Shown here: in pieces, positions 1 through 17,330 of the stretch
Layout: every line of letters starts with the position of its first letter
Numbering within the stretch: position 1 is the stretch's first letter
NCBI RefSeq assembly: GCF_023264895.1
Contig: NZ_JAHFUY010000043.1
Coordinates: 1-34,823 of the forward strand
DNA length: 34,823 nt
Direction of reading: 5' to 3'
DNA from: Herbiconiux sp.
Lineage (GTDB): Bacteria > Actinomycetota > Actinomycetes > Actinomycetales > Microbacteriaceae
Notes under the pieces: generated by a model
Told to the model about the DNA's origin: nothing
Database searches by the model: none
Seen by the model: only the letters and a program-made list of their open reading frames with translations
Made by a program: the position numbers and the translations under genes

Positions 1-242
1 CGCGCCTCGGCGTCTCGGTGCGTGGCGCCATGGCGCTCATCCGCGCCTCGAAGGTGTGGGCCGCCGCCCAGGGCCGCCACTTCGTGCTGCCCGACGACAT
101 CAAGGAGCTCGCGGGGCCGGTCTGGACCCACCGCTTCGTGCTCGACGCCGAGGCCGAGTTCTCCGGCGCCTCCGCCGAGGGCGTGCTCGCGCGCGTGCTC
201 GCCGACGTGGCCGCACCGCAGTCGAGGCAACCCGCTGCATGA
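1..242 (+). CDS. MoxR-family AAA+ ATPase, C-terminal end only (partial)
   Basis: Only the last ~80 residues are present, read from base 3, so the gene begins before the window. The visible part (R-G-A-x-A-L-I-R-A-S-K, then LPDDIKELAGPVWTHRF) matches the C-terminal lid of MoxR ATPases, where an 'LPDD(I/V)' step and a 'P-x-x-x-H-R' helix are usual. MoxR proteins are chaperone-like ATPases that typically act with DUF58 and membrane partners. The stop overlaps the ATG of the following DUF58 gene by four bases (ATGA), so the two are translationally coupled, which supports the assignment. Walker motifs lie outside the window and cannot be checked. Confidence 0.85.
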   Translation, partial: RLGVSVRGAMALIRASKVWAAAQGRHFVLPDDIKELAGPVWTHRFVLDAEAEFSGASAEGVLARVLADVAAPQSRQPAA

Positions 243-1555
243 GTGAGAGGCGGGCAAGGGGCGCGATCGGCCGGTCGCGGCCGATGGTGTGGGCGCGCGA
301 GAAGGCGGCGCCCTGGTTCACCCTGCACATCGGCAGCAGGATCGTGCCCGTGCTGCGCGCGATCTGGAAGGTGGTCGGGCCCACCCTCTCGACCGTCTCC
401 GGGTTCGGCTGGGCCGTGCTCGTCACGACCGTGCTCGCCCTCGTGGCCGGCGCGGTGTTCGGCTGGCGGGAGCTCCTCATCGTGGCGTTCGTGCTGCTCG
501 CCGCCCTCCTCATCGCCGTCGGCTTCGCGATCGGCCGCTCCGCCTACGCGGTGCGGCTCGACCTCGCCCTCAGCCGCGTCGTGGTGGGCGAGCGGGCCGT
601 CGGCCGCATCGCCGTGACCAACACCTCCACGCGATCGCTCCTCCCCGCCCGGATCGAGCTGCCCGTGGGCTCCTCGTTCGCCGCGTTCCACCTGCCCCGG
701 CTCGCACCCCAGGCCGAGCACGACGACCTCTTCGGCATCCCCACCCACCGCCGCTCCGTCATCCAGGTCGGCCCGGTGCGCTCGGTGCGGGGCGATCCGC
801 TCGGCCTGATGCGGCGCGAGATCCGCTGGACGGAACCGCGCGACCTCTTCGTGCATCCGAGGACCGTGGCCCTCGGCGGCTCGTCGTCCGGGTTCCTGCG
901 CGACCTCGAGGGCATCGAGAGCCGCGTGCTCTCGGACAACGACGTCTCGTTCCACGCCCTCCGCGAGTACGTGCCGGGCGACGACCGCCGCTACATCCAC
1001 TGGAAGACCTCGGCCCGCACCGGCAAGCTCATGGTGCGCCAGTTCGAGGAGACCCGCCGCTCGCACCTCGCGATCGGCCTCTCGACCAACCGCTCCGACT
1101 ACGCCGAGACCCCGGGCGACGACGCCGACTACTCGGCCGAGTTCGAGCTCGCCGTCTCCATCTGCGGCTCGCTCGGCGTGCAGGCCCTCCGCGAGGAGTT
1201 CGACCTCACCGTGCTCACCCAGCGTGCCGAGCTGCAGTCCGAGACCGGCCGCCGCCTGCTCGACGAGCTCTCCGGGGTGGCCCAGACCGAGCGTCGAGAG
1301 GCGATCGCCCAGCTCGCGAAGACCCTCGGCAGCTCGGTGCCGGATGCCTCGGTCGCGTTCTTCGTGTTCGGCAGCACCGTGACGCCCTCGCAGCTGCAGG
1401 CCGCCACGGTGCACGTGCCGCTCGGCGTGCGCGTGCTCGCGGTGTCGTGCCGCCCCGGCGCGCAGCTGTCGCTCCGTGAGATCGGCGAGACGAGCCTGCT
1501 CACGGTGGGCGACCTCTCCGACTTCCCGCTCGCACTCCGGAGGGCCAACAGCTGA
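239..1555 (+). CDS. DUF58 domain membrane protein
   Basis: A 438-residue protein. The start is the ATG at 239, which overlaps the MoxR stop; a longer upstream reading in the same frame would lie inside MoxR and is unlikely. Two hydrophobic segments are visible (about residues 55-75 and 79-98), followed by a soluble region. The DUF58 hallmark is at residues 242-270: REYVPGDD, then R-x-I-H-W-K-T-S-A-R, then LMVRQFEE. DUF58 proteins have a von Willebrand factor A-like fold and are standard partners of MoxR ATPases. The stop overlaps the next start by one base (TGATG), so it lies in a coupled MoxR-DUF58-transglutaminase trio. The exact biochemical role is not known for this family. Confidence 0.93.
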   Translation: MSERRARGAIGRSRPMVWAREKAAPWFTLHIGSRIVPVLRAIWKVVGPTLSTVSGFGWAVLVTTVLALVAGAVFGWRELLIVAFVLLAALLIAVGFAIGRSAYAVRLDLALSRVVVGERAVGRIAVTNTSTRSLLPARIELPVGSSFAAFHLPRLAPQAEHDDLFGIPTHRRSVIQVGPVRSVRGDPLGLMRREIRWTEPRDLFVHPRTVALGGSSSGFLRDLEGIESRVLSDNDVSFHALREYVPGDDRRYIHWKTSARTGKLMVRQFEETRRSHLAIGLSTNRSDYAETPGDDADYSAEFELAVSICGSLGVQALREEFDLTVLTQRAELQSETGRRLLDELSGVAQTERREAIAQLAKTLGSSVPDASVAFFVFGSTVTPSQLQAATVHVPLGVRVLAVSCRPGAQLSLREIGETSLLTVGDLSDFPLALRRANS

Positions 1556-4011
1556 TGAGCGAACCGATGAGGCCGCGCCGCGGCGCCGCTCCCGCGGCTC
1601 CCGCCCCCCGCGCGTCCACCCCGCGCGCCTCCACCCCCCTCTTCCCGCCGCTGCCGCGGAACGCCAGGGCGCCCTGGGCGATGGCGATCGACGCCGGCGT
1701 GATCGCGCTGCTGCTGTTCGTCTCGGTGCTCGGCTTCGGGCCCGCGTTCGGCGGGGCCGGCTACCTCGTGGCCGGCATCGGCGGCATCGTGCTCGGCATC
1801 CTGATCGGGTTCGCCGGATGGCGGCTGTCGCTGAACATCGTCATCGTGGCCGCCCTCACCATCGTGGTCTACCTCCTCTTCGGCGGTCCGCTCGCGGCTC
1901 CCGGCACCACGATCCTCGGCGTCGTGCCGACGTTCGAGACGATCCGCACGATCGTGCTCGGCATCGTCTTCTCGTGGAAGGACGTGCTGACCCTCGTCAC
2001 CCCCGTGGGCGAGTTCGACGGCACCCTCGTGGTGCCCTTCCTCACCGCGCTCCTCATGGCCGTCCTCGCCACGAGCTTCGCGCTGCGGCTGAAGAACGCC
2101 ACCTGGGCGCTGCTGCCGGCCGCCGTGCTCTTCGTGACCGCCATCGCCTTCGGCACGCGGGAGGCCGCGTTCCCGGCCCTGCAGGGGCTCGTGTTCGCCG
2201 GGCTCGCGCTCACCTGGGCGGCCTGGCGCCGGCACGAGCGGCGCGCGGCGGCCACCATCGGCACGTCGGGCGCCGGCGCCGCCGGTGGCGCCACGGGTCT
2301 CGACGCCTCCCGCATCGACCCCGAGACCGCCAAGAAGCTCCGCACCACCCGCCTCGCCCTCGGAGCCGGCCTCGTCGTGACCGCGCTCGGCCTCGGCTTC
2401 GTGACGGGCGGCATCCTCGTGCCAGCCGCGGCCCGCGAGGTCATCCGCGACCAGATCGTGCCGCCGCTCGACCTGCACGACTACGCGAGCCCGCTCGTCG
2501 GCTTCCGCAGCTACGTGCGCGACTTCAAGGAGGAGTCGCTCTTCACCGTGCAGGGGCTGCCGAACGACGCGCGCATCCGCCTCGCCACCCTCGACGACTA
2601 CGACGGCATCGTCTACAACGTCGGCGGAGACGGGACCACCGGTTCCGGCACCTTCACGCGCGTGAGCAGCGAGATCACCAACGACGTCGAGGGCGAGCCC
2701 GCCTCGCTCGAGTTCACCATGACCGGGCTCGACGGCGTGTGGCTGCCGGACACCGGCTACCTCGACGCCTTCCGCTTCACGGGCGACCGCGCGGAGGAGC
2801 TCGGCGGCACGCTGCACTACAACGCCGCCACCGGCGTGGCGCTCAACACCGAGGGCGTGACCGAGGGCGACGAGTACGCCATCGACACCGTGCTGCCCGA
2901 GACCTTCAACGACGAGCAGCTCTCCAGCCGCAAGGTCGACGACATCTCGATGCCGCGCGCCACGGGCGTGCCCGACATCGTGGGCTCGCTCGCCTCGGAG
3001 TACCTCGGCGACGCCGAGACGCCCATCGAGCAGGTGCGCAACATCGCCTCGAACCTCAGCCAGAACGGCTTCTTCAGCCATGGGCTCGAGGGCGAGGCCG
3101 TCTCGCGCGCCGGCCACGGTGCCGAGCGGATCGCGTCGCTCCTCGACGCCGAGCAGATGATCGGCGACGACGAGCAGTACGCGGTGGCGATGGCCCTCAT
3201 GGTGCGGTCGATGGGCATGCCCGCGCGCGTGGTGATGGGCTTCTACCCCGACGACTACACGGGCCCCGAGTCGACCTACGAGATCACGGGCGACCAGCTC
3301 CACGCCTGGGTCGAGGTGCCGTTCGAGGGCGCGGGCTGGGTGCGGTTCGACCCCACGCCGCCCGAGGACCAGGTGCCGCTCGAGGAGGCCCCGAAGCCGA
3401 AGTCCGACCCCAAGGCCCAGGTGCTGCAGCCGCCGCCCCCGCCGCAGGAGCCCGCGGAGCTGCCGCCGGACATCCGCACCCAGGACACCGACCAGGAGGA
3501 GGTGCAGGAGGAGGGCTTCGACTTCCTGCCCGTGTTCCTGGCCGCGGGCAGCCTGCTGGCGCTCCTGATCGTCATCTTCACGCCGCTCCTCGTGATCGTG
3601 CTGCTGAAGCTCCGGCGCCGCAAGAAGCGCCGGCTCGCCGCACGGCCGGTCGACCGCGTGAGCGGCGGCTGGGACGAGATCGTCGACCGCGCACGCGACC
3701 TCGGCACCCCCGTGCCGTACGGGTCGACCCGCCGCGACAACGCCGCAGCGCTCGCGACCGCGTATCCGGAGGCCCCCGTGCTGGCCGTCGCGACGAGGGC
3801 CGACGGCAGCGTCTTCGGCCCCGGCGAGCCGACCGAGCAGGAGGTCGACCAGTACTGGACCGAGGTCGACTCGATCGTCGACTCGATGCGCCGGTCGCGA
3901 TCGGCCTGGAAGCGGTTCCTGGCCGCCTGGTCGGTGCGCTCGTTCTTCCGGCGCCGGAGCGCCCGCGCAGCAGGCAGCACACCCCGCACCACCACCCGAG
4001 GAGGCCGATGA
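1555..4011 (+). CDS. TgpA-like membrane protein with transglutaminase-like domain (catalytic Cys replaced)
   Basis: An 818-residue protein. A Pro/Ala-rich N-terminus is followed by several membrane segments (about residues 44-64, 70-88, 92-109, 160-178, 184-200, 205-224 and one near 265-285), a large outside domain, and a last membrane helix near 657-685 ahead of a basic cytoplasmic tail. The outside domain holds a transglutaminase-like core at about 530-605. His583 (LHAWVEV) and Asp599 (RFDPTP) of the usual Cys-His-Asp triad are present, but the Cys position in the usual C-E-Q-[YF]-A motif is Asp539 (GDDEQYA). I infer that it is not a classical thiol enzyme and may be structural or peptide-binding. 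The one-base overlap with the DUF58 gene indicates coupled translation. MoxR/DUF58/transglutaminase trios are a recurring bacterial arrangement. Confidence 0.9.
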   Translation: MSEPMRPRRGAAPAAPAPRASTPRASTPLFPPLPRNARAPWAMAIDAGVIALLLFVSVLGFGPAFGGAGYLVAGIGGIVLGILIGFAGWRLSLNIVIVAALTIVVYLLFGGPLAAPGTTILGVVPTFETIRTIVLGIVFSWKDVLTLVTPVGEFDGTLVVPFLTALLMAVLATSFALRLKNATWALLPAAVLFVTAIAFGTREAAFPALQGLVFAGLALTWAAWRRHERRAAATIGTSGAGAAGGATGLDASRIDPETAKKLRTTRLALGAGLVVTALGLGFVTGGILVPAAAREVIRDQIVPPLDLHDYASPLVGFRSYVRDFKEESLFTVQGLPNDARIRLATLDDYDGIVYNVGGDGTTGSGTFTRVSSEITNDVEGEPASLEFTMTGLDGVWLPDTGYLDAFRFTGDRAEELGGTLHYNAATGVALNTEGVTEGDEYAIDTVLPETFNDEQLSSRKVDDISMPRATGVPDIVGSLASEYLGDAETPIEQVRNIASNLSQNGFFSHGLEGEAVSRAGHGAERIASLLDAEQMIGDDEQYAVAMALMVRSMGMPARVVMGFYPDDYTGPESTYEITGDQLHAWVEVPFEGAGWVRFDPTPPEDQVPLEEAPKPKSDPKAQVLQPPPPPQEPAELPPDIRTQDTDQEEVQEEGFDFLPVFLAAGSLLALLIVIFTPLLVIVLLKLRRRKKRRLAARPVDRVSGGWDEIVDRARDLGTPVPYGSTRRDNAAALATAYPEAPVLAVATRADGSVFGPGEPTEQEVDQYWTEVDSIVDSMRRSRSAWKRFLAAWSVRSFFRRRSARAAGSTPRTTTRGGR

Positions 4012-5324
4012 TGACGGATGCGACGTCGTACCCCTGCGTGCAGTGCGGTTCGCCCGTGCCCCGCAGCGCCCAGTTCTGCCTGGTCTGCGGCACGCCCGCG
4101 GCGGTGCGCAGCCAGTCGGCCGCCCTCGGCCAGGTGGCGGGGCAGGTGCCGCTCGTCGACTCCTCCGGCCGGCCCATGGACGGCTGGCGGCCCGAGCCCG
4201 CGGCGCCGCCCATCCGCTACGGCGACATCATCCCGAGCGGCTTCGGCCGGCGCGTGGTGGCGTTCCTGCTCGACGGCCTCGTCACGACCGTGCTGTGGCT
4301 CGTGATCGTGCTGCCGCTGCTCGCGCTCGGCGTCATCGAGGTCGTGACCGACGGCACCGTGGTCTCGGTGTCTGGCCTCAGTGCCGTGCTGCTGTTCCTG
4401 CCCGCGATGCTCTACCCGCTCGCGAAGCTGTTCCTGGAGTCGTTCCTCGGCTTCTCGCTCGGCAAGCTCGTGATGGGCCTCCGGATCGTGAACGTGACGA
4501 GGCTCGGCCGGCCGGGGCTCGGCTGGGTGCTGCTGCGGAACCTCGTGGTGGCCGCGGGAGCCCTCGTCTTCGGCGTGGGCCAGTACGTCGTGCTGCTGTC
4601 GCCGCTCTGGGACGGCGAGAAGCGCATGCGGGGCTGGCAGGACAAGGTCGGCCGCACCTGGGTGATCGACGTGAAGGCGGGGCCCAACCCGCTGAAGGCG
4701 CTGCCCGGGCAGCTGCTGCTCGACCAGGGGACGTACGAGCAGCAGGATCCGGCGCTGTACGGGGCACCGGCGGCACCGGCCGCACCGAGCGCTCCTGCCG
4801 CCCCTTCGCTGGCGCCGGTCGACTACGCCCCGCCGGCTCCTCCGGCCGCGCCGCCCGCTCCTCCCGCGGCGCCGATCGCCTCCGTGCCCGGCTTCGCGCC
4901 CGCGGCTCCCGTGATCACGCCCGCCGAGGCCGCGGCCGACGACTTCGAGAGCACGCGCCTCTCCGATTCCGCACGGCCCCCTCTCGCCACCGGCGTCACC
5001 GTGTTCCGGCTCGACACGGGCGAGATCGTGCCGATCATCCGCCACGGCGCCCTGGGCCGCGACCCCGTGGCGCCCGGCGGCGACCCGAGCGACGTGCTCA
5101 TCGCGCTCTCCGGCGACACGCTCTCGGTGTCGAAGACGCACCTCGAGTTCGGCGTCGATTCCGGTGCCGTCTGGGTGAGCGACCGCGGCTCCACCAACGG
5201 ATCCGCGATCGTGCGCGCCGACGGCGTGGAGTACCCGCTCGACGCCGGCGAGCGCCTCACCGTGGTGCCGGGCGACCGGGTGCGGGTGGGCACGCGACTG
5301 TTCTCGGTGGAGAGTGGAGCATGA
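4011..5324 (+). CDS. Zinc-ribbon / RDD membrane / FHA domain protein
   Basis: A 437-residue protein with three modules. First is a short zinc ribbon with Cys9, Cys12, Cys23 and Cys26. Next is an RDD domain at about 70-222, starting FGRRVVAFLLDGL and with hydrophobic segments near 85-107, 122-140 and 172-196. After a long Pro/Ala-rich linker there is a C-terminal FHA domain (about 345-430) with GR, S-K-T-H and S-T-N-G, the residues used to grip phospho-threonine. Two ATGs are adjacent (4008 and 4011). GAGGAGG at 3998-4004 is better spaced from 4011 (6 nt), so I chose that; 4008 would add one Met. Both overlap the preceding stop. It probably tethers phosphorylated partners at the membrane in this locus; that role is inferred. 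Confidence 0.88.
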   Translation: MTDATSYPCVQCGSPVPRSAQFCLVCGTPAAVRSQSAALGQVAGQVPLVDSSGRPMDGWRPEPAAPPIRYGDIIPSGFGRRVVAFLLDGLVTTVLWLVIVLPLLALGVIEVVTDGTVVSVSGLSAVLLFLPAMLYPLAKLFLESFLGFSLGKLVMGLRIVNVTRLGRPGLGWVLLRNLVVAAGALVFGVGQYVVLLSPLWDGEKRMRGWQDKVGRTWVIDVKAGPNPLKALPGQLLLDQGTYEQQDPALYGAPAAPAAPSAPAAPSLAPVDYAPPAPPAAPPAPPAAPIASVPGFAPAAPVITPAEAAADDFESTRLSDSARPPLATGVTVFRLDTGEIVPIIRHGALGRDPVAPGGDPSDVLIALSGDTLSVSKTHLEFGVDSGAVWVSDRGSTNGSAIVRADGVEYPLDAGERLTVVPGDRVRVGTRLFSVESGA

Positions 5325-6211
5325 GCGACGAGGAACGACCGGAACAGCAGCGCGGCGCACACGGGAGCGGAGTGCCCCTCGCGGCGCTGCAGCTCGACGT
5401 GGGCACCTCGACGCACACGGGGCTCCGGCGCCGGGCCAACGAGGACTCCCTGCTCGCCGTCTCGCCCGTCTTCCTCGTGGCCGACGGCATGGGCGGGCAC
5501 GAGGCCGGCGAGGTCGCGAGCTCGCTCGCGGTCGAGGCCTTCGCGGCGCTCACGGGGCCCGACTCGCTCGCCCCCACCGACATCCGCACCGCCTTCAAGC
5601 GCGCCCACACCACCATCACGGCACTCGCCTCCTCGGGCCGTCGCCGCGCCGGCACCACGGTGTCGGGCGTGGCCGTGGCCGAGAACGACGGCACGGCCTA
5701 CTGGCTCGTCTTCAACCTCGGCGACTCGCGCACCTACCGGCTCGCCTCGGGCGAGCTCGAGCAGATCAGCGTCGACCACTCGGTGGTGCAGGAGCTGCTC
5801 GACGAGGGCGAGCTCGACCGGGCGGATGCCGCCACGCACCCCGGCCGCAACGTCATCACCCGCGCGCTCGGCGCGGGCGGCGAGTTCGAGGCCGACTACT
5901 GGCTCGTGCCGGTGGAGTCGGGCGACCGCATGCTGATCTGCTCCGACGGCATCTCGGGCGAGCTCGACGACGAGCTCATCGCGCGCGTGCTCCTCGACGA
6001 GGGCACGCCTCAGGATGCCGCCACCCGGCTCGTGCACGAGGGCCTCACCCGCGGCGGCCGCGACAACCTCACGGCCGTGGTGGTCGACGCCTGGGACTCC
6101 GTGTCCTCCGTGCGCAGCGCACCCCAGGGCCGCGACGACGAGCACGACGACGGGCGGCACGGGGAGGACACCATCCCCCGCGGGCCGGTCGGCGTCGGCG
6201 GAAGGAACTGA
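5321..6211 (+). CDS. PP2C-family Ser/Thr protein phosphatase
   Basis: A 296-residue soluble phosphatase. The metal-binding PP2C motifs are all visible: G-L-R-R-R-A-N-E-D-S near residue 34, VADGMGGHEAGE near 53 (Asp55), LGDSRTYRL, an ICSDGISGEL motif, and the closing GRDNLTAVVVD. These place it with PstP/PrpC-type enzymes that dephosphorylate Ser/Thr kinases and their substrates in a Mn/Mg-dependent reaction. The start is the ATG at 5321, overlapping the RDD-FHA stop by four bases. It is the expected antagonist of the kinase encoded two genes downstream, and FHA proteins on either side are candidate substrates or readers. Confidence 0.96.
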   Translation: MSDEERPEQQRGAHGSGVPLAALQLDVGTSTHTGLRRRANEDSLLAVSPVFLVADGMGGHEAGEVASSLAVEAFAALTGPDSLAPTDIRTAFKRAHTTITALASSGRRRAGTTVSGVAVAENDGTAYWLVFNLGDSRTYRLASGELEQISVDHSVVQELLDEGELDRADAATHPGRNVITRALGAGGEFEADYWLVPVESGDRMLICSDGISGELDDELIARVLLDEGTPQDAATRLVHEGLTRGGRDNLTAVVVDAWDSVSSVRSAPQGRDDEHDDGRHGEDTIPRGPVGVGGRN

Positions 6212-6212
6212 G

Positions 6213-7718
6213 ATGACCACCCTCCACTACACCCCCGGCCCCTGGTGCGCGGTCGTCGTGCCCGAGGGCGTGGCCGTGCTGCCGGCGGGCACCGACGCCG
6301 AGCTGCTCGAGAAGGTCTGGGCGGCGCTGCAGGCCGGCGAGGGCCTCGGCGGAGTGCTCGAGGCGCTCACCGGAACGTTCGGCACGAGCCTCGGCTCGCT
6401 GCCGCCGTTCGCCGTCGCCACGGTGTCGGGCTCCGCGGTGCGGCTCGCGGTGCGCGGTGAGCTCACCATCGACGTCGTGGAGGGATCGGATGCCGGCACC
6501 GCCGTCTCGCTGACCGTGTCCGGCGCCGACGTGACGACCTGGAGCGAGCGCGTGGTCGCGGAAGCCAGGCACCTCACGCTGCGCACCCCGGAGAGCGCCT
6601 CCGCGCAGCGCTTCGGCGTCGCCAGCGGCGTGGTGCTCGTGTCGGCGGTGGAGCTCGACGTGACCGGCGAAGGGGTGGCGGTGTCCGCACCGGCCACTGC
6701 CTCTGTGGCTGCCTCAGCGCCCGCGCCCGTCGCTTCAGAGGTGCCCGAAGCGACGCTCATGACCGGTGACGGAGTGATCGAGGAGGCCGCCCCCGAGGCG
6801 GCCGACCCGGAGACTCCGGTCGAGGTGGCCATGGGCGACGAGGTCAGCGAGGCCGGCCCCGACGAGGTGGCCGAGCTCGAGCACACGCGCGACGAGCTGC
6901 CCGACGACGCCTACGACCACCTGTGGGGCGCCACCGTGGTCAAGTCGGTCGAAGACGCGGCCGTGCGCGAGCTCGAGGAGGACGACGAGTCCGAGGAGGT
7001 CGGAGCGTCCTCCGTTCCCGTCGAACCCCCCGCGCCGTCCTCCGTCCCCGAACCTCCCGCACCCGTCGCGCCCCCGGTCGCACCGCCGCCGCCCGTGCAG
7101 TCCTCGGGGCTCATCGACAGCGTGCCGGGCTTCGGCGGCCTGGGTGCCGCCTCCGGCAGCGCCAGCATCAACGGCAGCACGGTGCCCCCGGCCGCCCCCG
7201 CCGCGACCCCGGCTCCCGTCACTCCGGCCGCCCCGGCCTCTCAGTCCGCCCCGGTCGCTCCGGCAGCCCAGGCCGACGACGACCACGACGGCCTCACCGT
7301 CACCGTCTCCGAGCTCGAGGCCATGCGCCGCCTCGGCGCCGCCGGAGGCGACGCCCCCGCCGCCCTGCCCGACTCGGCGCTCGGCCGCATCGTGCTCTCG
7401 ACCGGCGAGACGCATCCGCTCGACAAGCCCGTCATCATCGGCCGCCGCCCCCGCGCCAACCGGGTGCAGGTCGATCGCGTGCCCGTGCTCGTGACCGTGC
7501 CGAGCCCGGAGCAGGACATCTCGCGCAACCACCTCGAGATCCGCCTCGAGGGCCGGCACGTGCTCGTGGTCGACCTCGACACCACCAACGGCTCGGTGCT
7601 GCACCGCGAGGGCACTCCCCCGCTCCGCCTCGGCCCGCACGAGCCCGTGCTCGTGCTCTCCCGCGACATCGTCGACATCGGCGACGGCGTGACCGTCACC
7701 TTCGAGGAGATCCCGTGA
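6213..7718 (+). CDS. FHA domain protein with unassigned N-terminal domain
   Basis: A 501-residue protein starting at the ATG at 6213, one base after the phosphatase stop region and behind GGAAGGA at 6200-6206. The first ~150 residues form a compact domain I do not recognise. A long acidic and Pro/Ala-rich linker (about 150-390) follows, then a C-terminal FHA domain at about 391-490 with IIGRRP, ISRNHLEI and T-T-N-G. All of the usual phospho-threonine contact residues are intact, unlike the FHA-like protein further downstream. No membrane segment is seen, so it is probably a cytoplasmic adaptor between kinase and machinery. Its stop overlaps the kinase GTG start by four bases. The adaptor role is inferred from domain and context. 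Confidence 0.9.
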   Translation: MTTLHYTPGPWCAVVVPEGVAVLPAGTDAELLEKVWAALQAGEGLGGVLEALTGTFGTSLGSLPPFAVATVSGSAVRLAVRGELTIDVVEGSDAGTAVSLTVSGADVTTWSERVVAEARHLTLRTPESASAQRFGVASGVVLVSAVELDVTGEGVAVSAPATASVAASAPAPVASEVPEATLMTGDGVIEEAAPEAADPETPVEVAMGDEVSEAGPDEVAELEHTRDELPDDAYDHLWGATVVKSVEDAAVRELEEDDESEEVGASSVPVEPPAPSSVPEPPAPVAPPVAPPPPVQSSGLIDSVPGFGGLGAASGSASINGSTVPPAAPAATPAPVTPAAPASQSAPVAPAAQADDDHDGLTVTVSELEAMRRLGAAGGDAPAALPDSALGRIVLSTGETHPLDKPVIIGRRPRANRVQVDRVPVLVTVPSPEQDISRNHLEIRLEGRHVLVVDLDTTNGSVLHREGTPPLRLGPHEPVLVLSRDIVDIGDGVTVTFEEIP

Positions 7719-9397: not shown

Positions 9398-9400
9398 ACC

Positions 9401-10153
9401 ATGATCGACGAGACGACCACCCCTCCCCCCGGCGCCCCCGCCACCCGCTCCGACGCGAGCGTGGAGTTCTGCGGCGAGTGGTTCCCACTCAGCCACGACA
9501 AGCCGTTCGAGATCGGTCGCGAGGCCGACCTCGACATCGACGACAACCAGTACCTGCACCGCCGGTTCCTGCAGATCTCCAACGTCGACGGCATGTGGTG
9601 GCTCTCGAACGTGGGCTCGCGCCTCAGCGCCACGGTCTCGGATGCGAGCCGCACCATGCAGGCCTGGCTCGCCCCCGGCGCCCGCATGCCCATCGTCTTC
9701 GGCCTCACCACGGTGGTCTTCACGGCCGGCCCCACGAGCTACGAGTTCACGGTGCACACGTCTGCCCCGACCTTCTTCGACTCCTCCCCCGTGCCCTCCG
9801 GCAGCGGCGCCACCACGGTCGGCGCCGTCACCTTCACCGCCTCGCAGAAGCTGCTCATCCTGGCCCTCGCCGAGCCCATGCTGAAGCGCGAGGGCACCGG
9901 CACGAGCGAGATCCCCTCCTCCCAGCTCGCCGCCGAGCGGCTCGGCTGGGCGCTCAGCCGCTTCAACCGCAAGCTCGACAACGTGTGCGACAAGCTCAGC
10001 CGCACGGGCGTGGAGGGCCTCCGTGGCGGGGTCGGCGCCCTCGCCACGAACCGCCGGGCGCGCCTGGTGGAGTACGCGGTGCTCTCCCGCCTCGTCACGA
10101 AGGCAGACCTGCCCCTCCTCGACCAGCCCAGCGACGACAACGACGACAGGTAG
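9401..10153 (+). CDS. Degenerate FHA-like protein with putative winged-helix C-terminus
   Basis: A 250-residue protein starting at ATG 9401, three bases after the kinase stop, with GGAG at 9391-9394. Residues ~20-100 look like an FHA sandwich: FEIGREADLDI carries the first Gly-Arg (39-40). However, the expected S-R-x-H is replaced by H-R-R-F (53-56) and the later N-G turn is absent, so phospho-threonine binding is doubtful. The C-terminal part (about 130-235) is helical with a helix-turn-helix flavour: TASQKLLILALAEPML, then SSQLAAERLGWALSRFNRKL, which I read as a possible winged-helix DNA-binding domain. It sits between the kinase and the EssC-like motor and could be a regulator of the locus. 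The FHA fold assignment is good; the HTH call is tentative. Confidence 0.72.
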   Translation: MIDETTTPPPGAPATRSDASVEFCGEWFPLSHDKPFEIGREADLDIDDNQYLHRRFLQISNVDGMWWLSNVGSRLSATVSDASRTMQAWLAPGARMPIVFGLTTVVFTAGPTSYEFTVHTSAPTFFDSSPVPSGSGATTVGAVTFTASQKLLILALAEPMLKREGTGTSEIPSSQLAAERLGWALSRFNRKLDNVCDKLSRTGVEGLRGGVGALATNRRARLVEYAVLSRLVTKADLPLLDQPSDDNDDR

Positions 10154-10162
10154 CAGCACCGG

Positions 10163-13100
10163 ATGCGCATCAAGGCCACACTGAGACGCCCGGGCGGCTC
10201 GAGCGACAACCTCCAGATCACCGCCGACGCCACCGCGAGCGTCTCCGACATCGCCGAGGCCATCTACCGTGCCGATCCGCAGCGTGCAGATCCACAGCGA
10301 TCGGGCACGGAGCGGACCGATCCGCTGGCCGCCGTGCCGTCGAACCTCACCCTGCAGGTCTCCGGCGCGTCCGGTGCCGCCCGCGTGCTCGACCCCTCCT
10401 CGAACCTGCTCGAGTCCGGCGTGCGGTCGGGCTCCGTGCTCGAGCTCGCCCAGCACAGCGAGGGCTACACCTCGGCCGGGCCGAGCGGGCCCGCGGCGGC
10501 GACCCTGCGCGTGCTGAGCGGTCCGGATGCGGGGGCCGAGTTCGCGCTCCCCTTCGGCTCGAGCTACATCGGCCGTGAGCGCGGCATCGACGTGCGGCTC
10601 TCCGACGGGCTCATCTCGAAGCGCCACGCGCGCATCAACATCGGCGAGCACGTCGAGATCATCGACATGAAGTCGGCCAACGGCCTCGTGATGGGCGGCG
10701 AGCAGGTGGCGCGCACGACGCTCTCCTCCGCCGACGTCGTGATGCTCGGCGACACGGCCATCTGCATCGTGCCGCTGCAGCGGCTCGGCGGAGCGGCTCC
10801 CTCGACCCCCGTGATCGAGTTCAACCGCTCGCCGCGGGTCGTCGCGCGCTATCCCGGCGACGAGTTCCCCACGCCGTCACCGCCCAAGCAGCCGCAGCCC
10901 ATCCGCTTCCCGCTCGTGGCGCTCGCGGCGCCGCTGCTCATGGGCCCGATCCTGTTCCTGGCCACCGGATCCGCGCTCAGCCTGATCTTCATCGCGCTCA
11001 GCCCGATCATCATGATCGGCACCTGGGCCGACCACAAGCTCCAGACCAGGCGCCAGCTCCGCGACGCCATCAAGCTCTTCAACGAGCAGATCGACGCCTT
11101 CGTGAAGTCGATGCACGAGAAGCAGCGCATCCAGCGGGCCGTGCGCCTCACCGAGGCGCCGGCCGTGAGCGCCACCGTCGACGCCGTCGACCGGCTCGGC
11201 CAGCTGCTCTGGACGCACCGCCCCGAGCACACCGCCTTCCTCACCGCGCGCCTGGGCATCGGCACCGGCCCGAGCCGCGACAAGATCTCGATGCCGAACG
11301 CCAACGAGGCCCTGCCGGAGTACTGGGCGCAGGTGGAGGAGGTCGCCGACCGCTTCTCGCGCATCGACGGCGTGCCGATCGTGGTGGAGTTCCGCAAGGC
11401 CGGTGCCCTCGGCGTGGCCGGCGGTGGAGACGGCCGCCACGGCGTCGCCCGCGGCATCGTGACCCAGCTCGCGGGCCTGCACTCCCCCTCCGAGCTCGTC
11501 ATCTGCGCCCTCGCCTCCCCCACCTCGCGCACCACCTGGGAGTGGCTCGAGTGGCTCCCCCACACCACGAGCCCGCACAGCCCGCTCGGCGGCGATCACC
11601 TCGCCGACAACCCCGGCTCGGGCGCCGCGCTGCTCTCCCGCCTCGAGGCGCTCATCGACTCCCGCACCGCGGGCGCCCCGAGCCCCCGCGGCCCGATCGA
11701 CACCGACAAGGACAAGCAGGAGCTCGCCCACCCGATCACCCCATCGGTGCTCGTGGTGATCGAGGACGACACGCCGCTCGACCGCGGCCGGCTCACCCGC
11801 CTGGTCGAGCGCGGGGCGGACGCCAACGTGCACGTGCTGTGGTCGGCCCCCTCGATCGGCGACCTGCCGGCGGCGTGCCGGAGCTTCGTGAGCGTCGATC
11901 CGGAGCCCGCTGCGTCCACCTCGCCCGCCGCCCCTGCGGGCGGTGCGTCCGGTACCGCGGGTCAGGTGCGGCTCGGCGAGCACACCTTCCCGCTCGAGTG
12001 CGAGACCGTCGATGCCGCGACCGCGCACCGGCTCGCCCGCCAGCTCGCCCCCGTGGTCGACGTCGGCGCCCCCATCGACGACGACTCCGACCTGCCGCGA
12101 TCGGTCTCCTACCTCTCGCTCGTGGGCACCGAGCTCGCCGAGGTGCCCGAGGCCGTGATCGACCGCTGGCGCGAGAGCAACTCCATCGCCGACCGCTCGG
12201 GCGCACCGCTCGTGCGGCGCAAGAAGGAGGGGTCGCTGCGCGCGCTCGTGGGCCACTCCGGCACCGAGCCGTTCTACCTCGACATCCGCAACCAGGGCCC
12301 GCACGCCCTCGTGGGCGGCACGACCGGTGCCGGAAAGAGCGAGTTCCTGCAGTCGTGGGTGCTCGGCATGGCCGCGGCGCACAGCCCCGACCGGGCCACC
12401 TTCCTCTTCGTCGACTACAAGGGCGGCGCGGCGTTCGCCGACTGCGTGGGCCTGCCGCACACCGTCGGCCTCGTGACCGACCTCTCGCCGCACCTCGTGC
12501 GCCGCGCGCTCACGAGCCTCCGGGCGGAGCTGCGCTACCGCGAGCACCTGCTCAACCGCAAGAAGGCGAAAGACCTCGTCTCGCTCGAGAAGACCGGCGA
12601 CCCCGACACCCCGCCGAGCCTGCTGATCGTGGTCGACGAGTTCGCGGCCCTCGTGCAGGAGGTGCCCGAGTTCGTCGACGGCGTCGTCGATGTCGCCCAG
12701 CGCGGCCGCTCGCTAGGCCTCCACCTCATCCTCGCCACCCAGCGGCCCGCCGGCGTCATCAAGGACAACCTGCGCGCCAACACCAACCTCCGGATCGCGC
12801 TCCGGATGGCCGACGCCGACGACTCCAGCGACATCCTGGGCGACCCGATGGCCGCCTACTTCGACCAGTCGATCCCCGGCCGCGGCGCCGCGAAGACGGG
12901 GCCTGGCCGGCTCGCCTCGTTCCAGACCGGCTACGCGGGAGGCTGGACCACCAGCGAGGTGCCGCGCGCCCGCATCGACATGATCGAGATGGACTTCGGA
13001 TCGGGTGCCTCGTGGGAGGTGCCCGAGATCGAGGCGCCGATGCAGGCCGATCCGGGGCCCACCGACATCGCCCGGCTCGTCACGAGCATCCGGAACGCCG

Positions 13101-14701
13101 CGAAGCTCGCCGACATCCCCGAGCCGCGGAAGCCCTGGCTCGACGAGCTCGCGGCCGTCTACGACTTCTCGCTGCTGCCGAACCCGCGCACCGACGAGCA
13201 GCTGCTGCTCGGCGTGATCGACGACCCGGCGTCGCAGTCGCAGCCCACGGTCTTCTACGAGCCCGACCGCGACGGCAACATGGCCATCTACGGCACCGGT
13301 GGCGCGGGCAAGAGCGCCACACTCCGCACGATCGCCGTCTCGGCGGCCGTGACGCCCCGCGGCGGCCCCGTGCACGTCTACGGCCTCGACTTCGGCTCGA
13401 GCGGCCTCAGCATGCTGCAGGAGCTGCCCCACGTGGGCGCCATCATCTCCGGCGACGACGAGGAGCGCGTCATCCGGCTGCTCCGGATGCTCCGCGACCT
13501 CGTCGACGACCGCTCCATCCGCTACTCCGCCGTGCGGGCCGGGTCGATCGGCGAGTACCGGCGCATCGCCGATGCCCCGGCCGAGCCGCGCATCCTCGTG
13601 CTCGTCGACGGCATCGGCGCGTTCCGCGAGCAGTACGAGTTCGGCGGGCACTCCGCCTGGTTCACGACCTTCTCGCAGATCGCCACCGACGGCCGCCAGG
13701 TGGGCGTGCACATCGTGGTCACGGGAGACCGGCCGAACTCCGTGCCCGCCTCGCTCGGCTCCACGATCCAGCGGCGCCTCATCCTGCGCCTCGCGAGCGA
13801 GGACGACTACGCGCTCGTGAACGCCCCGAAGGACACCCTCTCGGCCGTCTCGCCCCCCGGCCGCGGCGTGATGGAGGGCGACGAGGTGCAGATGGCCGTG
13901 CTCGGCGCCGACTCCAACGTGGCCGTGCAGGCCAGGGAGATCGCCAAGCTCGCCGAGGCCATGCGTCGACAGGGTGTGACACCGGCGCTGCCGATCGAGC
14001 ACCTCGCCGAGTCGGTGCCGCTCAGCACGCTGCCCGCGACGCCGCCCGGATCCGGGTCGTCGAGCGCGCCGGGCGATCTTCAGCCCGTCATCGGTGTGCG
14101 CGACGACACGCTCGCGCCCTTCGCCATCAAGGCCCGGGGTGCCATGCTGCTCGCCGGAACGGCCGGCAGTGGGCGCTCGACCGCCATCGCGACCATCGCG
14201 ACGGCCCTTCGACGTGCCGATCCGCGCATCCGGCTCGTGCACATCTCACCCCGCAAGACCAACCTCACGCCGCTGCCGATCTGGAGCATCTCGCTGCACG
14301 ATCCGGCGCAGATCACGGCGTTCGCCGACGACGTCACGGCCCAGCTCGACGCCGAGACGCTGAAGCCGGGGCAGTTCGCGGTCTTCGTCGAGAACATCGG
14401 CGAGCTCAACGGCTCCCCGGCCGAGGCCGACGTCGACAGGCTGATCAAGCGAGCGCTCCGCGACGACGTGTTCGTGGTGGGCGAGAGCGAATCGTCGACC
14501 TGGTCGTCGGCGTGGACCCTCGGAGGCTCGTTCAAGAACTCCAAACGAGGACTCCTGCTCGTGCCGGGAGAGCTCGACGGGGATTCGTTGCTGGGCACGT
14601 CGCTCGGTCGCTTCAAGCGCGCGGATCTGCCGCCTGGCCGGGGATTCTTCGTGCAGGGCGGTCGCGTCACGAAGCTGCAGGTGGCGACCCGCGACGACTG
14701 A
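10163..14701 (+). CDS. EssC/FtsK-like type VII secretion motor with N-terminal ubiquitin-like and FHA domains
   Basis: A 1512-residue protein. Residues 1-95 resemble a YukD/EsaB ubiquitin-like fold. An intact FHA domain follows at ~113-190 (IGRERG near 136, SKRHARI, S-A-N-G). Two membrane helices lie at ~250-288. Three FtsK/SpoIIIE-type ATPase modules follow: P-loop 1 GGTTGAGKSE (718-727) with a DEF Walker B near 825; P-loop 2 GTGGAGKS (1044-1051); and P-loop 3 GTAGSGRST (1332-1340), where Arg1338 replaces the catalytic Lys. This is the EssC plan of Firmicutes-type systems, with three ATPase units in one chain, rather than split EccCa/Cb. It should energise export of the WXG100 proteins encoded next. 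The start at ATG 10163 has only a weak ribosome site. Confidence 0.92.
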   Translation: MRIKATLRRPGGSSDNLQITADATASVSDIAEAIYRADPQRADPQRSGTERTDPLAAVPSNLTLQVSGASGAARVLDPSSNLLESGVRSGSVLELAQHSEGYTSAGPSGPAAATLRVLSGPDAGAEFALPFGSSYIGRERGIDVRLSDGLISKRHARINIGEHVEIIDMKSANGLVMGGEQVARTTLSSADVVMLGDTAICIVPLQRLGGAAPSTPVIEFNRSPRVVARYPGDEFPTPSPPKQPQPIRFPLVALAAPLLMGPILFLATGSALSLIFIALSPIIMIGTWADHKLQTRRQLRDAIKLFNEQIDAFVKSMHEKQRIQRAVRLTEAPAVSATVDAVDRLGQLLWTHRPEHTAFLTARLGIGTGPSRDKISMPNANEALPEYWAQVEEVADRFSRIDGVPIVVEFRKAGALGVAGGGDGRHGVARGIVTQLAGLHSPSELVICALASPTSRTTWEWLEWLPHTTSPHSPLGGDHLADNPGSGAALLSRLEALIDSRTAGAPSPRGPIDTDKDKQELAHPITPSVLVVIEDDTPLDRGRLTRLVERGADANVHVLWSAPSIGDLPAACRSFVSVDPEPAASTSPAAPAGGASGTAGQVRLGEHTFPLECETVDAATAHRLARQLAPVVDVGAPIDDDSDLPRSVSYLSLVGTELAEVPEAVIDRWRESNSIADRSGAPLVRRKKEGSLRALVGHSGTEPFYLDIRNQGPHALVGGTTGAGKSEFLQSWVLGMAAAHSPDRATFLFVDYKGGAAFADCVGLPHTVGLVTDLSPHLVRRALTSLRAELRYREHLLNRKKAKDLVSLEKTGDPDTPPSLLIVVDEFAALVQEVPEFVDGVVDVAQRGRSLGLHLILATQRPAGVIKDNLRANTNLRIALRMADADDSSDILGDPMAAYFDQSIPGRGAAKTGPGRLASFQTGYAGGWTTSEVPRARIDMIEMDFGSGASWEVPEIEAPMQADPGPTDIARLVTSIRNAAKLADIPEPRKPWLDELAAVYDFSLLPNPRTDEQLLLGVIDDPASQSQPTVFYEPDRDGNMAIYGTGGAGKSATLRTIAVSAAVTPRGGPVHVYGLDFGSSGLSMLQELPHVGAIISGDDEERVIRLLRMLRDLVDDRSIRYSAVRAGSIGEYRRIADAPAEPRILVLVDGIGAFREQYEFGGHSAWFTTFSQIATDGRQVGVHIVVTGDRPNSVPASLGSTIQRRLILRLASEDDYALVNAPKDTLSAVSPPGRGVMEGDEVQMAVLGADSNVAVQAREIAKLAEAMRRQGVTPALPIEHLAESVPLSTLPATPPGSGSSSAPGDLQPVIGVRDDTLAPFAIKARGAMLLAGTAGSGRSTAIATIATALRRADPRIRLVHISPRKTNLTPLPIWSISLHDPAQITAFADDVTAQLDAETLKPGQFAVFVENIGELNGSPAEADVDRLIKRALRDDVFVVGESESSTWSSAWTLGGSFKNSKRGLLLVPGELDGDSLLGTSLGRFKRADLPPGRGFFVQGGRVTKLQVATRDD

Positions 14702-15110: not shown

Positions 15111-15117
15111 TTGGACC

Positions 15118-15156
15118 AGGCGGGAGTCCTCCGGGGCTCCCGCCTCCTTTTTCTTT
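15118..15156 (+). terminator. Intrinsic terminator after the short WXG100 gene
   Basis: A 9-bp perfect G+C-rich stem, AGGCGGGAG (15118-15126) and CTCCCGCCT (15137-15145), with a 10-nt loop, is followed by a T-rich run CCTTTTTCTTT. It begins 8 bases after the stop of the 88-residue WXG100 gene. This is the cleanest rho-independent terminator in the window and should reduce read-through into the long WXG100 gene. Confidence 0.88.
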
Positions 15157-15189
15157 CATCTATCCGATCCGCACGCTTGAGAGGGTGTC

Positions 15190-16308
15190 ATGGCTGGTGG
15201 TTTCTACGGGGCAGACGTCGAACAGCTCCGACAACTGGCGAAGAAGTTCGACAACGCCGCTGAGAATCTGAACACGGTGACATCGAGTCTCACCACGAGC
15301 GTCAACCAGGCGCAGGCGTGGCAGGGTCCGGATGCCTCGACCTTCCGCTCCGACTGGAACGGCACGCACACCGCGCAGCTGAAGGCCGCGGTCGCGGCCC
15401 TCACGGCCGGCAGCGACAGCCTCGTGAAGAACGCCGAGGATCAGAACACGTCGTCGACCGACGGCGGCACGTTCGGCGGAGGCGGCGGGGCCGGGGGCTC
15501 CGGCGGCTCAGGCGGTTCGGGTTCGGGCGGCTCCGGCTCTGGCGGTTCCGGCGGCGGATCCACCGGTGGTGGATCGTCAGGCGGCGGCGGGGGTGGCGGC
15601 GGCGGGGGCGGCAACGGAGGAGCCGACGACGACTCCGGCAGCTACGCCCACGGCTTCGAAGACGAGGGCTACGCCGACGCGGGCGTGACCTACGACGAGA
15701 ACGGCATGCCGGACGCCCGCGCCGAGGCCGGCTGGCAGTGGGGCACCGGAGCCGGTGCCAACGGCAGCTTCGGCGACGAGAACTTCGGCGGCGAGGGATC
15801 GGCCGACGCCTTCTTCGGGGTCGATTCCGATGCCGAGGCCGGCGCCGGCTTCAACCTCGATGACGGTGCCTACGCCGATGCCTCGGCCGGAGGGTTCGTC
15901 GGCGGCCGTGCCGACGCCGGAGGATCGTTCTCCGGTGCCGACGGCATGTACGGCGGCAGCGGAAGCGCCGAGGTCATGATCGGTGCCGAAGCGAACGCCA
16001 ATGCGGGAGCCACCATCGGCCCCGACGGGATCGGTGCCAACGCCGGTGTCGAGGGCTTCGTGGGCGGCCGTGCCGGAGTCGAAGGCGAGCTCAACGTGGG
16101 CGGCGGCGCCGTCTCCGTGGGCGGTGGCGCCGAGGTGATGTACGGCATCGGCGGCCATGCCAACGTCGACGCCGAGGTCACCTGGGACAACGTGGATGTC
16201 TCGTTCGACGTCGGTGCCGCCTTCGGCCTCGGCGGCGGTGTGAGCTTCGACTTCTCGATCAGCCCCTCCGAGACCATCGACACCGTCGGTGGCTGGCTCG
16301 GATTCTGA
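15190..16308 (+). CDS. Long WXG100-domain protein with Gly-rich linker and repetitive C-terminal domain
   Basis: A 372-residue protein. Residues 1-90 are a WXG100 domain with W-Q-G at 44-46, clearly paralogous to the 88-residue neighbour. Residues ~93-148 are a flexible Gly/Ser linker. From ~155 to 372 is an Ala/Gly/Asp-rich, tyrosine- and phenylalanine-punctuated region with loose repeats of about 50 residues; the phrase FVGGRA occurs twice, each followed by an A/G-x-G-E/S stretch. The end (FGLGGGVSFDFSISPSETIDTVGGWLGF) resembles tails I recall from actinobacterial type VII-linked proteins. No enzymatic toxin motif is recognised. It is probably a secreted or surface substrate of the system. 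GAGAGGG just upstream of ATG 15190 is the ribosome site. Confidence 0.88.
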   Translation: MAGGFYGADVEQLRQLAKKFDNAAENLNTVTSSLTTSVNQAQAWQGPDASTFRSDWNGTHTAQLKAAVAALTAGSDSLVKNAEDQNTSSTDGGTFGGGGGAGGSGGSGGSGSGGSGSGGSGGGSTGGGSSGGGGGGGGGGGNGGADDDSGSYAHGFEDEGYADAGVTYDENGMPDARAEAGWQWGTGAGANGSFGDENFGGEGSADAFFGVDSDAEAGAGFNLDDGAYADASAGGFVGGRADAGGSFSGADGMYGGSGSAEVMIGAEANANAGATIGPDGIGANAGVEGFVGGRAGVEGELNVGGGAVSVGGGAEVMYGIGGHANVDAEVTWDNVDVSFDVGAAFGLGGGVSFDFSISPSETIDTVGGWLGF

Positions 16309-16353
16309 TCCCGTTCTGATCCACTTCTCCTCGATCTCTGAAAGGCTCGAACC

Positions 16354-16830
16354 ATGTCGTACTCCATCAGCTTCCCCGGCGATTCCGCCCCCGCCCTGCC
16401 CTCCATCGGTCTGACCGTGCCCGACGACTGGAGCCCGCTCGCCGTGACCGGCGCCGTGCTCGCCGCCGGCAAGAAGGTCGAGCAGGGCGAGTTCCGCCCC
16501 AACGTCGTGGTGGCGATCTCCCGCTTCGCCCAGGGCTACTCCCTGCAGACGGCGATCGACGCCGTCATCGGCCGCGTCGAGTCGATCGAGGGCGTGCAGG
16601 AGCTCGGCCGCGATGCCCACGAGGTGGTCGGCCGCGAGGGCTTCCGCATCGAGTTCAGCTACCCCGACGCCCGCGTGGGAACGCTCATGCAGGCCGTCCG
16701 TATCGCCGTGGTCGAGAACGGCCCCGTCGCCGACCTCGTGCAGGTCACGGCCACCACCTCGGGCAGGCAGGCCACGGAGTTCTGGGACGAGATCCGGGCC
16801 ATCCAGGACAGCGCGGTGACGACCTCCTGA
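16354..16830 (+). CDS. LpqN/DUF1795-like (PsbP/Mog1-fold) protein
   Basis: A 158-residue protein without signal peptide or lipobox. The pattern ISFPGD, then VPDDWSPLAV, then NVVVAISRF, then DAVIGRVESIEG and a closing helix EFWDEIRAIQDS fits the small alpha/beta PsbP/Mog1-like fold of the LpqN and DUF1795 families. Mycobacterial LpqN-type proteins are often near envelope and secretion genes, but here the protein looks cytoplasmic. It starts at ATG 16354 with GAAAGG upstream and overlaps the next gene by one base. Being directly behind the long WXG100 gene, it could be a chaperone or a protective partner for it; this is inference. Confidence 0.65.
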   Translation: MSYSISFPGDSAPALPSIGLTVPDDWSPLAVTGAVLAAGKKVEQGEFRPNVVVAISRFAQGYSLQTAIDAVIGRVESIEGVQELGRDAHEVVGREGFRIEFSYPDARVGTLMQAVRIAVVENGPVADLVQVTATTSGRQATEFWDEIRAIQDSAVTTS

Positions 16831-17330
16831 TGGCCGCCCTCCCCTTCGCCGAGGCCCAGGCGCGGGTGCTCGCGCTCAACAGCGACGAGCTGCCGTTCGT
16901 CTACGAGCCCGCGCCCTACGGCATCCGCGCCGCCTGGAAGTACGCCGACGTCAAGTGGGCGGCCGTCACCGCGGCCGGCACCATCTCGGGCGACTACGAG
17001 CTGCGGGTCACGCTCGACCCCGAGTCGTCGACGTGGACCTTCGACGAGACCCGCACCGAGAGCCGCTCCTCCGTGCAGAGCGACGGCGGCGGGGGCTTCA
17101 GCGCCTCGTTCGGCAGCTCGGGCTTCAAGGGCAGGCAGAAGAGCGCCTCGTTCCACTTCGGCGTGGGAACCGCGGCCAGCAGCACCGATCGCCAGGGCAC
17201 GCACGAGGGCAACACCTACGGCTACTCCTTCACGACCGACGAGGTGAAGGAGCCGCTCATCGCGGCCCTCGAGTCGGCCGGCTGGGAGCCTGCCCGCAAG
17301 GGCTTCTTCGGCAAGCTCTTCGGCGGCTGA
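16830..17330 (+). CDS. Unrecognised protein at the end of the secretion locus
   Basis: A 166-residue protein I do not recognise. It has no signal peptide or membrane helix. The middle (about 55-125) alternates charged and aromatic residues like a beta-rich domain, including DPESSTWTFDETRTESRSS and a Gly/Ser-rich stretch GGGGFSASFGSSGFKG. The end is a short basic, aromatic tail (KGFFGKLFGG). The start overlaps the LpqN-like stop by one base (TGATG), so the pair is co-translated and probably works together. It is the last gene of the plus-strand run before a structured gap. Confidence 0.75.
   Translation: MAALPFAEAQARVLALNSDELPFVYEPAPYGIRAAWKYADVKWAAVTAAGTISGDYELRVTLDPESSTWTFDETRTESRSSVQSDGGGGFSASFGSSGFKGRQKSASFHFGVGTAASSTDRQGTHEGNTYGYSFTTDEVKEPLIAALESAGWEPARKGFFGKLFGG

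Follow-up and report, generated by a model that had tools for sequence, protein, structure and literature searches.

A putative type VII secretion variant in Herbiconiux that joins an EssC-type motor to a PFNA-type signalling module

The stretch of Herbiconiux sp. DNA considered here, hereafter the window, comprises bases 1-34823 of contig C20 (35,456 bases) and carries a gene run in which a motor ATPase of the EssC/EccC family and two WXG100 proteins are encoded together with MoxR, DUF58, TgpA-like, RDD-FHA, PP2C and FHA proteins and a membrane Ser/Thr kinase (Table 1). On balance, we favor the view that the run specifies a type VII secretion variant, in which a PFNA-type module for envelope signalling is combined with WXG100 proteins and a motor of the EssC type. 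The system looks like a new variant of type VII secretion, with export itself being predicted from the sequence, and the linkage between the signalling genes and this type of motor extends across families. A first, sequence-only reading had described one plus-strand run from MoxR to the two WXG100 genes as a type VII-like locus; reading frames and family scans bear out every gene it named, on the plus strand and nearly end to end (intergenic gaps of at most 142 bases), and the motor and WXG100 proteins sustain the type VII-like assignment.

The companion genes form a PFNA-type module

In relatives, MoxR is preceded by a very large protein, and the locus of the window does not begin at base 1 either: the remainder of MoxR is found on contig C44, where it comes after a giant Ig/FN3 surface protein of about 2,000 residues and runs to the end of the contig. 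The giant protein contains 11 Big_9 and four fn3 stretches as detected by Pfam, and hydropathy gives a single transmembrane segment, near the N-terminus, and none at the C-terminus. With this protein included, the companion genes match the five core genes of the PFNA operon of bifidobacteria, with PP2C and FHA genes in addition, as far as the available portions of the sources describe it (PMC8430577, PMC6803598). That operon, so far described as an immune-sensing operon, is given as pkb2-fn3-aaa/MoxR-duf58-tgm with optional prpC, hypothetical and fha genes (PMC8430577). The kinase, FN3 protein, MoxR, DUF58 and transglutaminase-like genes are present together in this genome, but not in the fixed kinase-first order, the window kinase being placed after PP2C and FHA. 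No paper joining PFNA and type VII secretion was found in the open-access literature.

The TgpA-like protein was aligned to the solved TgpA structure 6g49, and displays an aspartate at the position of the cysteine, which we take to be the catalytic one. In 13 homologues the position is occupied by Asp (11) or Glu (2) and never by Cys, while the HAW motif is kept. As the catalytic cysteine is replaced, a structural role of TgpA gains weight, and we infer such a role here. The suggestion of the first reading that DUF58 and the TgpA-like protein could contribute to the channel is thereby strengthened for TgpA, the membrane role of either protein being guesswork from topology.

Motor and module are linked across genomes

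Conservation of the gene order in relatives had been named as a check on the initial proposal, and it is indeed observed. Among 46 motor neighbourhoods, taken as 20-kb stretches, the window order is kept in 21 as far as the stretch reaches (in one of these, L077, no RDD-FHA gene was detected), and four more hold most of the set in another order, kinase-FHA3-giant-MoxR-DUF58-TgpA-motor. Four neighbourhoods are reduced (L054, L078, L083 and L087), and the remaining 17 contain no more than one module gene. Thus, with the order kept in 21 neighbourhoods and the set maintained in a second order in four, the gene run represents more than chance. The whole set is also present on an Arthrobacter plasmid.

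Across 297 genomes of the order, with thresholds of E 1e-100 for the motor and E 1e-30 for TgpA, the motor is found in 169 and TgpA in 159; 112 genomes have both, 57 the motor only and 81 neither. Distances were counted for 118 motor rows, that is all listed rows of at least 1,000 bits (split matches merged) and part of the listed 500-999-bit rows. Congruent with the earlier claim that the kinase, phosphatase and FHA genes are linked to the motor, TgpA lies within 25 kb of 34 of the 39 window-type motors (at least 2,100 bits) among the matches listed; the same holds for two of 12 motors of 1,000-1,699 bits and for three of the 31 rows used from the 500-999-bit band. The top band has five exceptions. 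G257 and G150 have a contig break, with kinase and FHA3 adjoining the motor; G063 (L078) maintains PP2C-FHA-kinase-FHA3-motor, with TgpA on another contig; in G033 a divergent TgpA adjoins the motor; and G251 has only a kinase near it.

Of 16 genomes of the genus, 12 encode both FHA3 and the orthologous motor and three encode neither, one of these three keeping a 49%-identical motor; a further genome, which is fragmented, has a motor piece without FHA3. In G016, G021 and G023 motor and FHA3 are far apart, and G026 has FHA3 and no such motor. Aggregated, the window motor type tends to come with the module, while the module does without the motor.

A shared Thr+3 motif suggests a phospho-threonine circuit

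The kinase retains intact VAIK, HRD and DFG motifs, and the motifs of the PP2C phosphatase are likewise intact. Scored with one pattern, the FHA signature is present in the motor at 27 of 28 loci, in the RDD-FHA protein at 22 of 23 and in the FHA protein at 16 of 26 (rows of the latter two can be confused by the search), and in FHA3 at none of 28. FHA domains choose their partners mainly by the residue at position +3 from the phospho-threonine. In the linkers of 29 kinases we counted 92 TxxR motifs, to be compared with a mean of 29 and a maximum of 44 in shuffled sequences, and the enrichment is confined to this spacing, with +1, +2, +4, +5 and +6 at chance. This count omits L053, where no HRD was found, and uses a second kinase gene for L078. 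A second count, from which a linker filter removed the T7SSd kinases, covers the motor-linked kinases (88 motifs in 28 kinases, 27 expected, maximum 41), those of motorless modules (five in four, 3.3 expected, maximum 8, near chance) and other kinases (26 in 24, 16 expected, maximum 27), several of which adjoin related motors.

The motif recurs in the partners. The PP2C tails hold 32 motifs in 25 loci (5.7 expected, maximum 12), typically as EDT[IL]PR, as compared to one of three motorless modules, and the FHA protein has a block of the L[FWY]xxTxx[RK] type in 19 of 28 loci and in none of three motorless modules. It is therefore likely, judging from these sequences, that the Thr-x-x-Arg/Lys motif shared by kinase linkers, PP2C tail and FHA protein serves as an address for FHA domains, hinting at phospho-threonine control of the system. 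That type VII loci can have genes for a kinase, a phosphatase and FHA proteins next to them was already published in 2024, as was the parallel to type VI secretion (PMC11217815, available portion).

FHA3 is strongly conserved despite its altered FHA motif. The window copy has no Pfam or PDB match, and the family gives only weak scattered matches, none of them in viral contigs. FHA3 may be an adaptor, or a regulator if its C-terminus is a winged helix, which it resembles by eye.

The motor belongs to the EssC/EccC family and begins with a ubiquitin-like domain

The best matches of the motor are the EssC (TIGR03928, 2.3e-154) and EccC models, all of them below the equivalog cut-offs, and its PDB relatives include YukB and EccC chains. 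Missing the cut-offs of TIGR03928, TIGR03924 and TIGR03925 would be in agreement with a DNA translocase or another ATPase that exports no protein, a notion we nevertheless regard as very improbable: EssC/EccC models give the motor hundreds of bits and the FtsK model 52, the structural relatives include YukB and EccC, a ubiquitin-like domain is predicted in the motor and WXG100 genes lie alongside. The locus hence has general type VII features, namely an EccC/EssC-type FtsK/SpoIIIE ATPase, WXG100 proteins encoded next to it and a ubiquitin-like domain, here fused to the motor.

This domain was recovered with a profile built from the N-termini of 44 motors (that of the window plus 43 from the 80 named-genome loci). 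Up to about position 80 the profile hits PDB chains with the ubiquitin fold (best E 3.5e-06), and beyond that point it hits FHA chains. Single N-termini are less telling, with Pfam assigning YukD to two and ubiquitin to one of the 44, and YukD to the window motor only at E 0.17. AlphaFold2 models residues 1-97 of the window motor as a beta-grasp with the strand order and helix of ubiquitin, followed by the FHA domain; the predicted local distance difference test (pLDDT) of the block is 84-97, except for 63-74 at residues 41-60. The motor of Bombiscardovia coagulans (L095) yields the same N-terminal elements at pLDDT 87-97, and its N-terminus retrieves ubiquitin-like chains in Foldseek with a target TM-score of up to 0.80, with an ESX-3 protomer chain at rank 44; two FHA chains and two long but poor fits account for the four matches below 0.001, the ubiquitin-fold chains appearing at about 0.002. 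As only FHA-type matches were returned for the window N-terminus among the 50 matches listed, its assignment rests on the profile search and the model. As modelled, the window motor and a Bifidobacteriaceae T7SSd motor both begin with a ubiquitin-like domain. The 2024 survey states for T7SSd that a ubiquitin-like orthologue is encoded at no locus (PMC11217815, available portion), and no report of a fusion between motor and ubiquitin-like domain was found in the open-access literature.

EccB and EssB are not found in the genome

The first reading saw none of the usual membrane set (EccB/D/E, MycP, EsaA, EssA or EssB) in the run. Genome-wide searches covered EccB, EccD, EssB and YukD (EccE, MycP, EssA and EsaA were not searched genome-wide) and largely extend this claim. 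EccB was not found in this genome (four of 40 genomes match, and none of 14 named controls), and EssB/YukC was found in none of the 40 genomes, this one included, while the B. subtilis control matches. EccD left a single sub-cut-off match in this genome and is over cut-off in the same four genomes as EccB. A separate YukD gene is likewise missing from this genome; YukD matches occur only in those same four, as expected of EccD in ESX loci.

The motor tree separates the window type from T7SSd

In a FastTree phylogeny of 70 motors, rooted on four EccC-type rows (L192, with its motor in two pieces, omitted; flank lengths differ among rows), the window motor falls in a clade of 34 rows that contains all 20 rows with at least three module genes. 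The sister clade of 32 rows includes the Bifidobacteriaceae T7SSd-type loci (L075, L190 and L095), Streptomyces and other motors, and none of its rows has three or more module genes. T7SSd is represented by L075 and L095, assigned by gene content and family, and by L190, with no Olsenella TsdC in the tree.

These data bear on whether the locus is a plain T7SSd with extra genes. The actinobacterial host, kinase, FHA-bearing motor, WXG100 proteins and Ig-rich giant protein are all as in the T7SSd set (PMC11217815, available portion). The motor clade is however separate from the Bifidobacteriaceae T7SSd motors, the short gaps of the run leave no room for TsdH, the giant protein has no C-terminal transmembrane segment by hydropathy, and PP2C, MoxR, DUF58, TgpA and RDD-FHA are absent from the T7SSd list. 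On tree and gene content we therefore judge a plain T7SSd unlikely.

Several features of the T7SSd-type loci were noted in passing. L075 follows the published plan of WXG100, kinase, 1,800-aa frame and motor, the frame with a signal peptide and a C-terminal transmembrane segment by eye. Downstream of its motor, a protein encoded at 17892-19463 matches T7SS_signal (PF21725, 9.2e-8) and represents a candidate substrate. The FHA region that follows the ubiquitin-like domain lacks the usual arginine in L075 (11887-12600) and L095 (10001-10705), and that of L075 has no Pfam FHA match, which contrasts with the published statement on TsdC FHA domains. In G106, a Bifidobacteriaceae-like genome, a PFNA cluster (L191) lies about 13 kb from the T7SSd locus (L075), on the other strand.

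Partners or neighbours

A number of observations weigh against a joined system. TgpA is present without the motor in 47 of the 297 genomes, and thus the module also stands alone. In G264 a module without motor has a DNA-ligase-like frame (by eye) after FHA3, and in G123 the module is followed by an RDD-FHA frame, with a divergent motor nearby on the other strand. This genome itself holds a second PFNA-type cluster, kinase first, for which no motor was found: C93 carries FHA-PP2C-kinase-giant and C45 carries giant-MoxR-DUF58-TgpA, which apparently make up a single locus split in two (C44, C45 and C93 correspond to L178-L180). Just one such motor was found in the whole genome (completeness 92%). 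Furthermore, TgpA is within 25 kb of only 11 of 36 motors of 1,700-2,099 bits among the matches listed, and one branch of the window clade includes eight rows without the module near the motor, although in this branch G017 has TgpA at 17 kb and G024 FHA3 at 15-19 kb from the motor. The Thr+3 motif is also seen in some motorless modules (L189 and L195), its counts are not independent events since the loci are related (10 of 28 from one genus), and the membrane roles of TgpA, RDD, DUF58 and the giant protein are guesswork from topology.

On these grounds the notion that the signalling set is dedicated to the motor is not borne out: the set is the PFNA operon, which also occurs without a motor. 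The related proposal of secretion switched by threonine phosphorylation stands in part, being consistent with the catalytic motifs, the motor FHA signature and the Thr+3 motif.

It is conceivable that motor and module are simply neighbours: a PFNA module that stands alone would share an operon with a small type VII motor for common expression or shared inheritance, and the kinase/FHA circuit would serve the module and not export. The motorless modules (G264, G123 and the second cluster), the 47 TgpA-only genomes, the 57 motor-only genomes (mostly of other motor types) and the distant motor and FHA3 in G016, G021 and G023 all agree with this scenario, which we consider a serious, if clearly lesser, possibility. 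It fits poorly with the linkage of 34 of the 39 listed window-type motors to TgpA, the set being kept in a second gene order, the joint loss of motor and FHA3 in the genus, the intact FHA domain of the motor itself and the enrichment of the Thr+3 motif in motor-linked kinases and not in the four motorless ones.

Proposed mechanism

In the joined system that we favor, the targets of the kinase would be threonines of the FHA protein, of the PP2C tail and of the kinase's own linker. Motor, RDD protein and FHA protein would read these marks through their FHA domains, so that the motor is gathered or licensed at the membrane proteins of the module, and PP2C would erase them. The usual membrane subunits would be replaced by RDD, DUF58, the giant Ig/FN3 protein and, in a structural capacity, TgpA, with MoxR assisting assembly. 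Both WXG100 proteins would be exported by the motor, and the tail of the second would be cargo. The module would have a job of its own without the motor too.

A more far-reaching version is doubtful and offered tentatively, namely that the PFNA module makes up half of a type VII machine, its membrane and control part. Pseudo-transglutaminase TgpA, RDD, DUF58 and the giant FN3 protein would then stand in for EccB/D/E or EssA/B/EsaA, the motor with its ubiquitin-like domain would dock through FHA domains that read a Thr+3 Arg/Lys code written by the kinase, and bifidobacterial PFNA would descend from such a system with the motor lost or moved.

The joined system connects two literatures that are unjoined in the papers searched, on type VII secretion and on the bifidobacterial PFNA operon. 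It offers an answer to the T7SSd without a ubiquitin-like protein, as the predicted domain is fused to the motor at least in the Bifidobacteriaceae T7SSd motor and the window motor. Moreover, it suggests how a secretion system might be switched, by a concrete phospho-code of TxxR/K shared by kinase, phosphatase and FHA protein, and it points to proteins that could form a different type VII membrane complex in many actinobacteria.

The gene run of the window

Two genes not named in the first reading close the run, an LpqN-like gene and one for a 166-aa protein. The LpqN-like gene follows the WXG100 genes in the loci of the genus; no kinship was seen between its product and the small protein that follows the WXG-like gene in L075. 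The WXG100 matches lie at or below the curated cut-off of PF06013 (27.6 bits for protein a and 21.8 for protein b, versus 27.3). The long tail of protein b is rich in Gly, Ala and Asp, and no Pfam match was obtained beyond its WXG100 part. Between the two genes, a GC-rich hairpin places its stem at the same position in all 10 folded sequences (the window and nine genus loci, L035-L043); the stem sequences vary, that of L043 being different and weaker. The hairpin may determine in what proportion the two WXG100 proteins are made.

Table 1. Features of the gene run, in window positions
Feature	Position	Strand	Evidence
MoxR AAA+ ATPase, C-terminal part	1..240	+	Match at about 3-240 to hidden Markov model built from relatives; rest of gene at end of C44
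DUF58 protein, two predicted transmembrane segments	239..1555	+	PF01882 3.5e-11; hydropathy
TgpA-like pseudo-transglutaminase (TgpA_N/Transglut_core), eight predicted transmembrane segments	1555..4011	+	PF11992, PF01841
TgpA, Asp in place of catalytic Cys	3163-3183	+	Alignment
Zinc ribbon-RDD-FHA membrane protein	4011..5324	+	PF06271 1.9e-14, PF00498 3e-4; zinc ribbon below its cut-off
PP2C phosphatase	5321..6211	+	PF13672 2.2e-10; NF033484 below cut-off
PP2C C-tail motif DTIPRG (Thr284)	6167-6184	+	
FHA protein (FHA2)	6210..7718	+	PF00498 6.9e-7
FHA2 conserved block with TVVK (Thr242)	6912-6956	+	
Membrane Ser/Thr kinase, one predicted transmembrane segment	7715..9397	+	PF00069 5.8e-40
Kinase TxxR motifs (Thr307, Thr376 and Thr404)	8630-8647, 8837-8854, 8921-8938	+	
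FHA3, FHA-like 250-aa protein, altered FHA motif	9401..10153	+	No Pfam/PDB relative found; co-occurs with motor
EssC/EccC-family motor (1,512 aa): ubiquitin-like domain, FHA, transmembrane, FtsK/SpoIIIE domains	10163..14701	+	PF01580 4.2e-53; TIGR03928 2.3e-154; YukB and EccC chains in PDB
Motor ubiquitin-like domain (predicted), residues 1-97	10163..10453	+	Profile versus PDB; AlphaFold2 model
Motor FHA domain, residues 116-204, signature intact	10508..10774	+	PF16697, PF00498
WXG100 protein a, 88 aa	14844..15110	+	PF06013 3.6e-6; TIGR03930 below cut-off; WTG at 14964-14972
Hairpin between WXG100 genes a and b, tail T-rich	15118..15146	+	Folding
WXG100 protein b, Gly-rich tail of about 260 residues, candidate cargo	15190..16308	+	PF06013 2.3e-4, below cut-off; WQG at 15319-15327
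LpqN-like protein	16354..16830	+	PF10738 1.5e-7; after WXG100 genes in genus loci
166-aa protein	16830..17330	+	No Pfam match; present in L073 and L074, the two relatives with downstream stretch examined

Comparison with known systems

Like the window, the bifidobacterial PFNA operon has the kinase, FN3 giant, MoxR, DUF58, TgpA-like, PP2C and FHA genes adjacent and in one direction (PMC8430577, available portion); in the window the kinase is late, and motor, WXG100, RDD-FHA and FHA3 genes are added. Among type VII systems, the EssC/YukB of T7SSb shares an N-terminal FHA and FtsK/SpoIIIE domains, with a YukB chain as PDB relative, but the EssB/YukC of that system is not found in the 40 genomes, and T7SSb EssC FHA domains are published as being without a phospho-threonine site, whereas the signature of the window motor is intact. 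T7SSa (ESX) differs in EccB and EccD, with none and one sub-cut-off match, respectively, in this genome.

T7SSd (Garrett, Higginson and Palmer 2024, PMC11217815, here and below as described in its available portion) resembles the window in its Actinomycetota host, FHA-bearing EssC-type motor, membrane kinase (TsdD), WXG100 proteins and Ig-rich giant protein. The window motor is in a clade apart from L075, L095 and L190 (T7SSd by content or family), TsdH is missing, PP2C and PFNA genes are present, and a ubiquitin-like protein, published as lacking in T7SSd, appears fused to the window motor. The giant proteins are likened by description, TsdI being Ig-rich with a signal peptide and a C-terminal transmembrane segment and the window giant Ig/FN3 protein having an N-terminal segment only. 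T7SSe of Bacillota is alike by description in its two WXG100 proteins, kinase, PPM phosphatase, FHA protein, Ig giant and ubiquitin-like part (PMC11217815), and differs in phylum and in the separate TseB, TseH and TseK genes. Finally, the threonine control of type VI secretion (PpkA/PppA/Fha; discussed in PMC11217815) similarly has a secretion machine accompanied by kinase, phosphatase and FHA components; the machine is unrelated, and the resemblance is of logic only. By analogy, the system may work like the kinase/phosphatase/FHA-linked T7SSd and T7SSe, with a control resembling that of threonine phosphorylation in type VI secretion.

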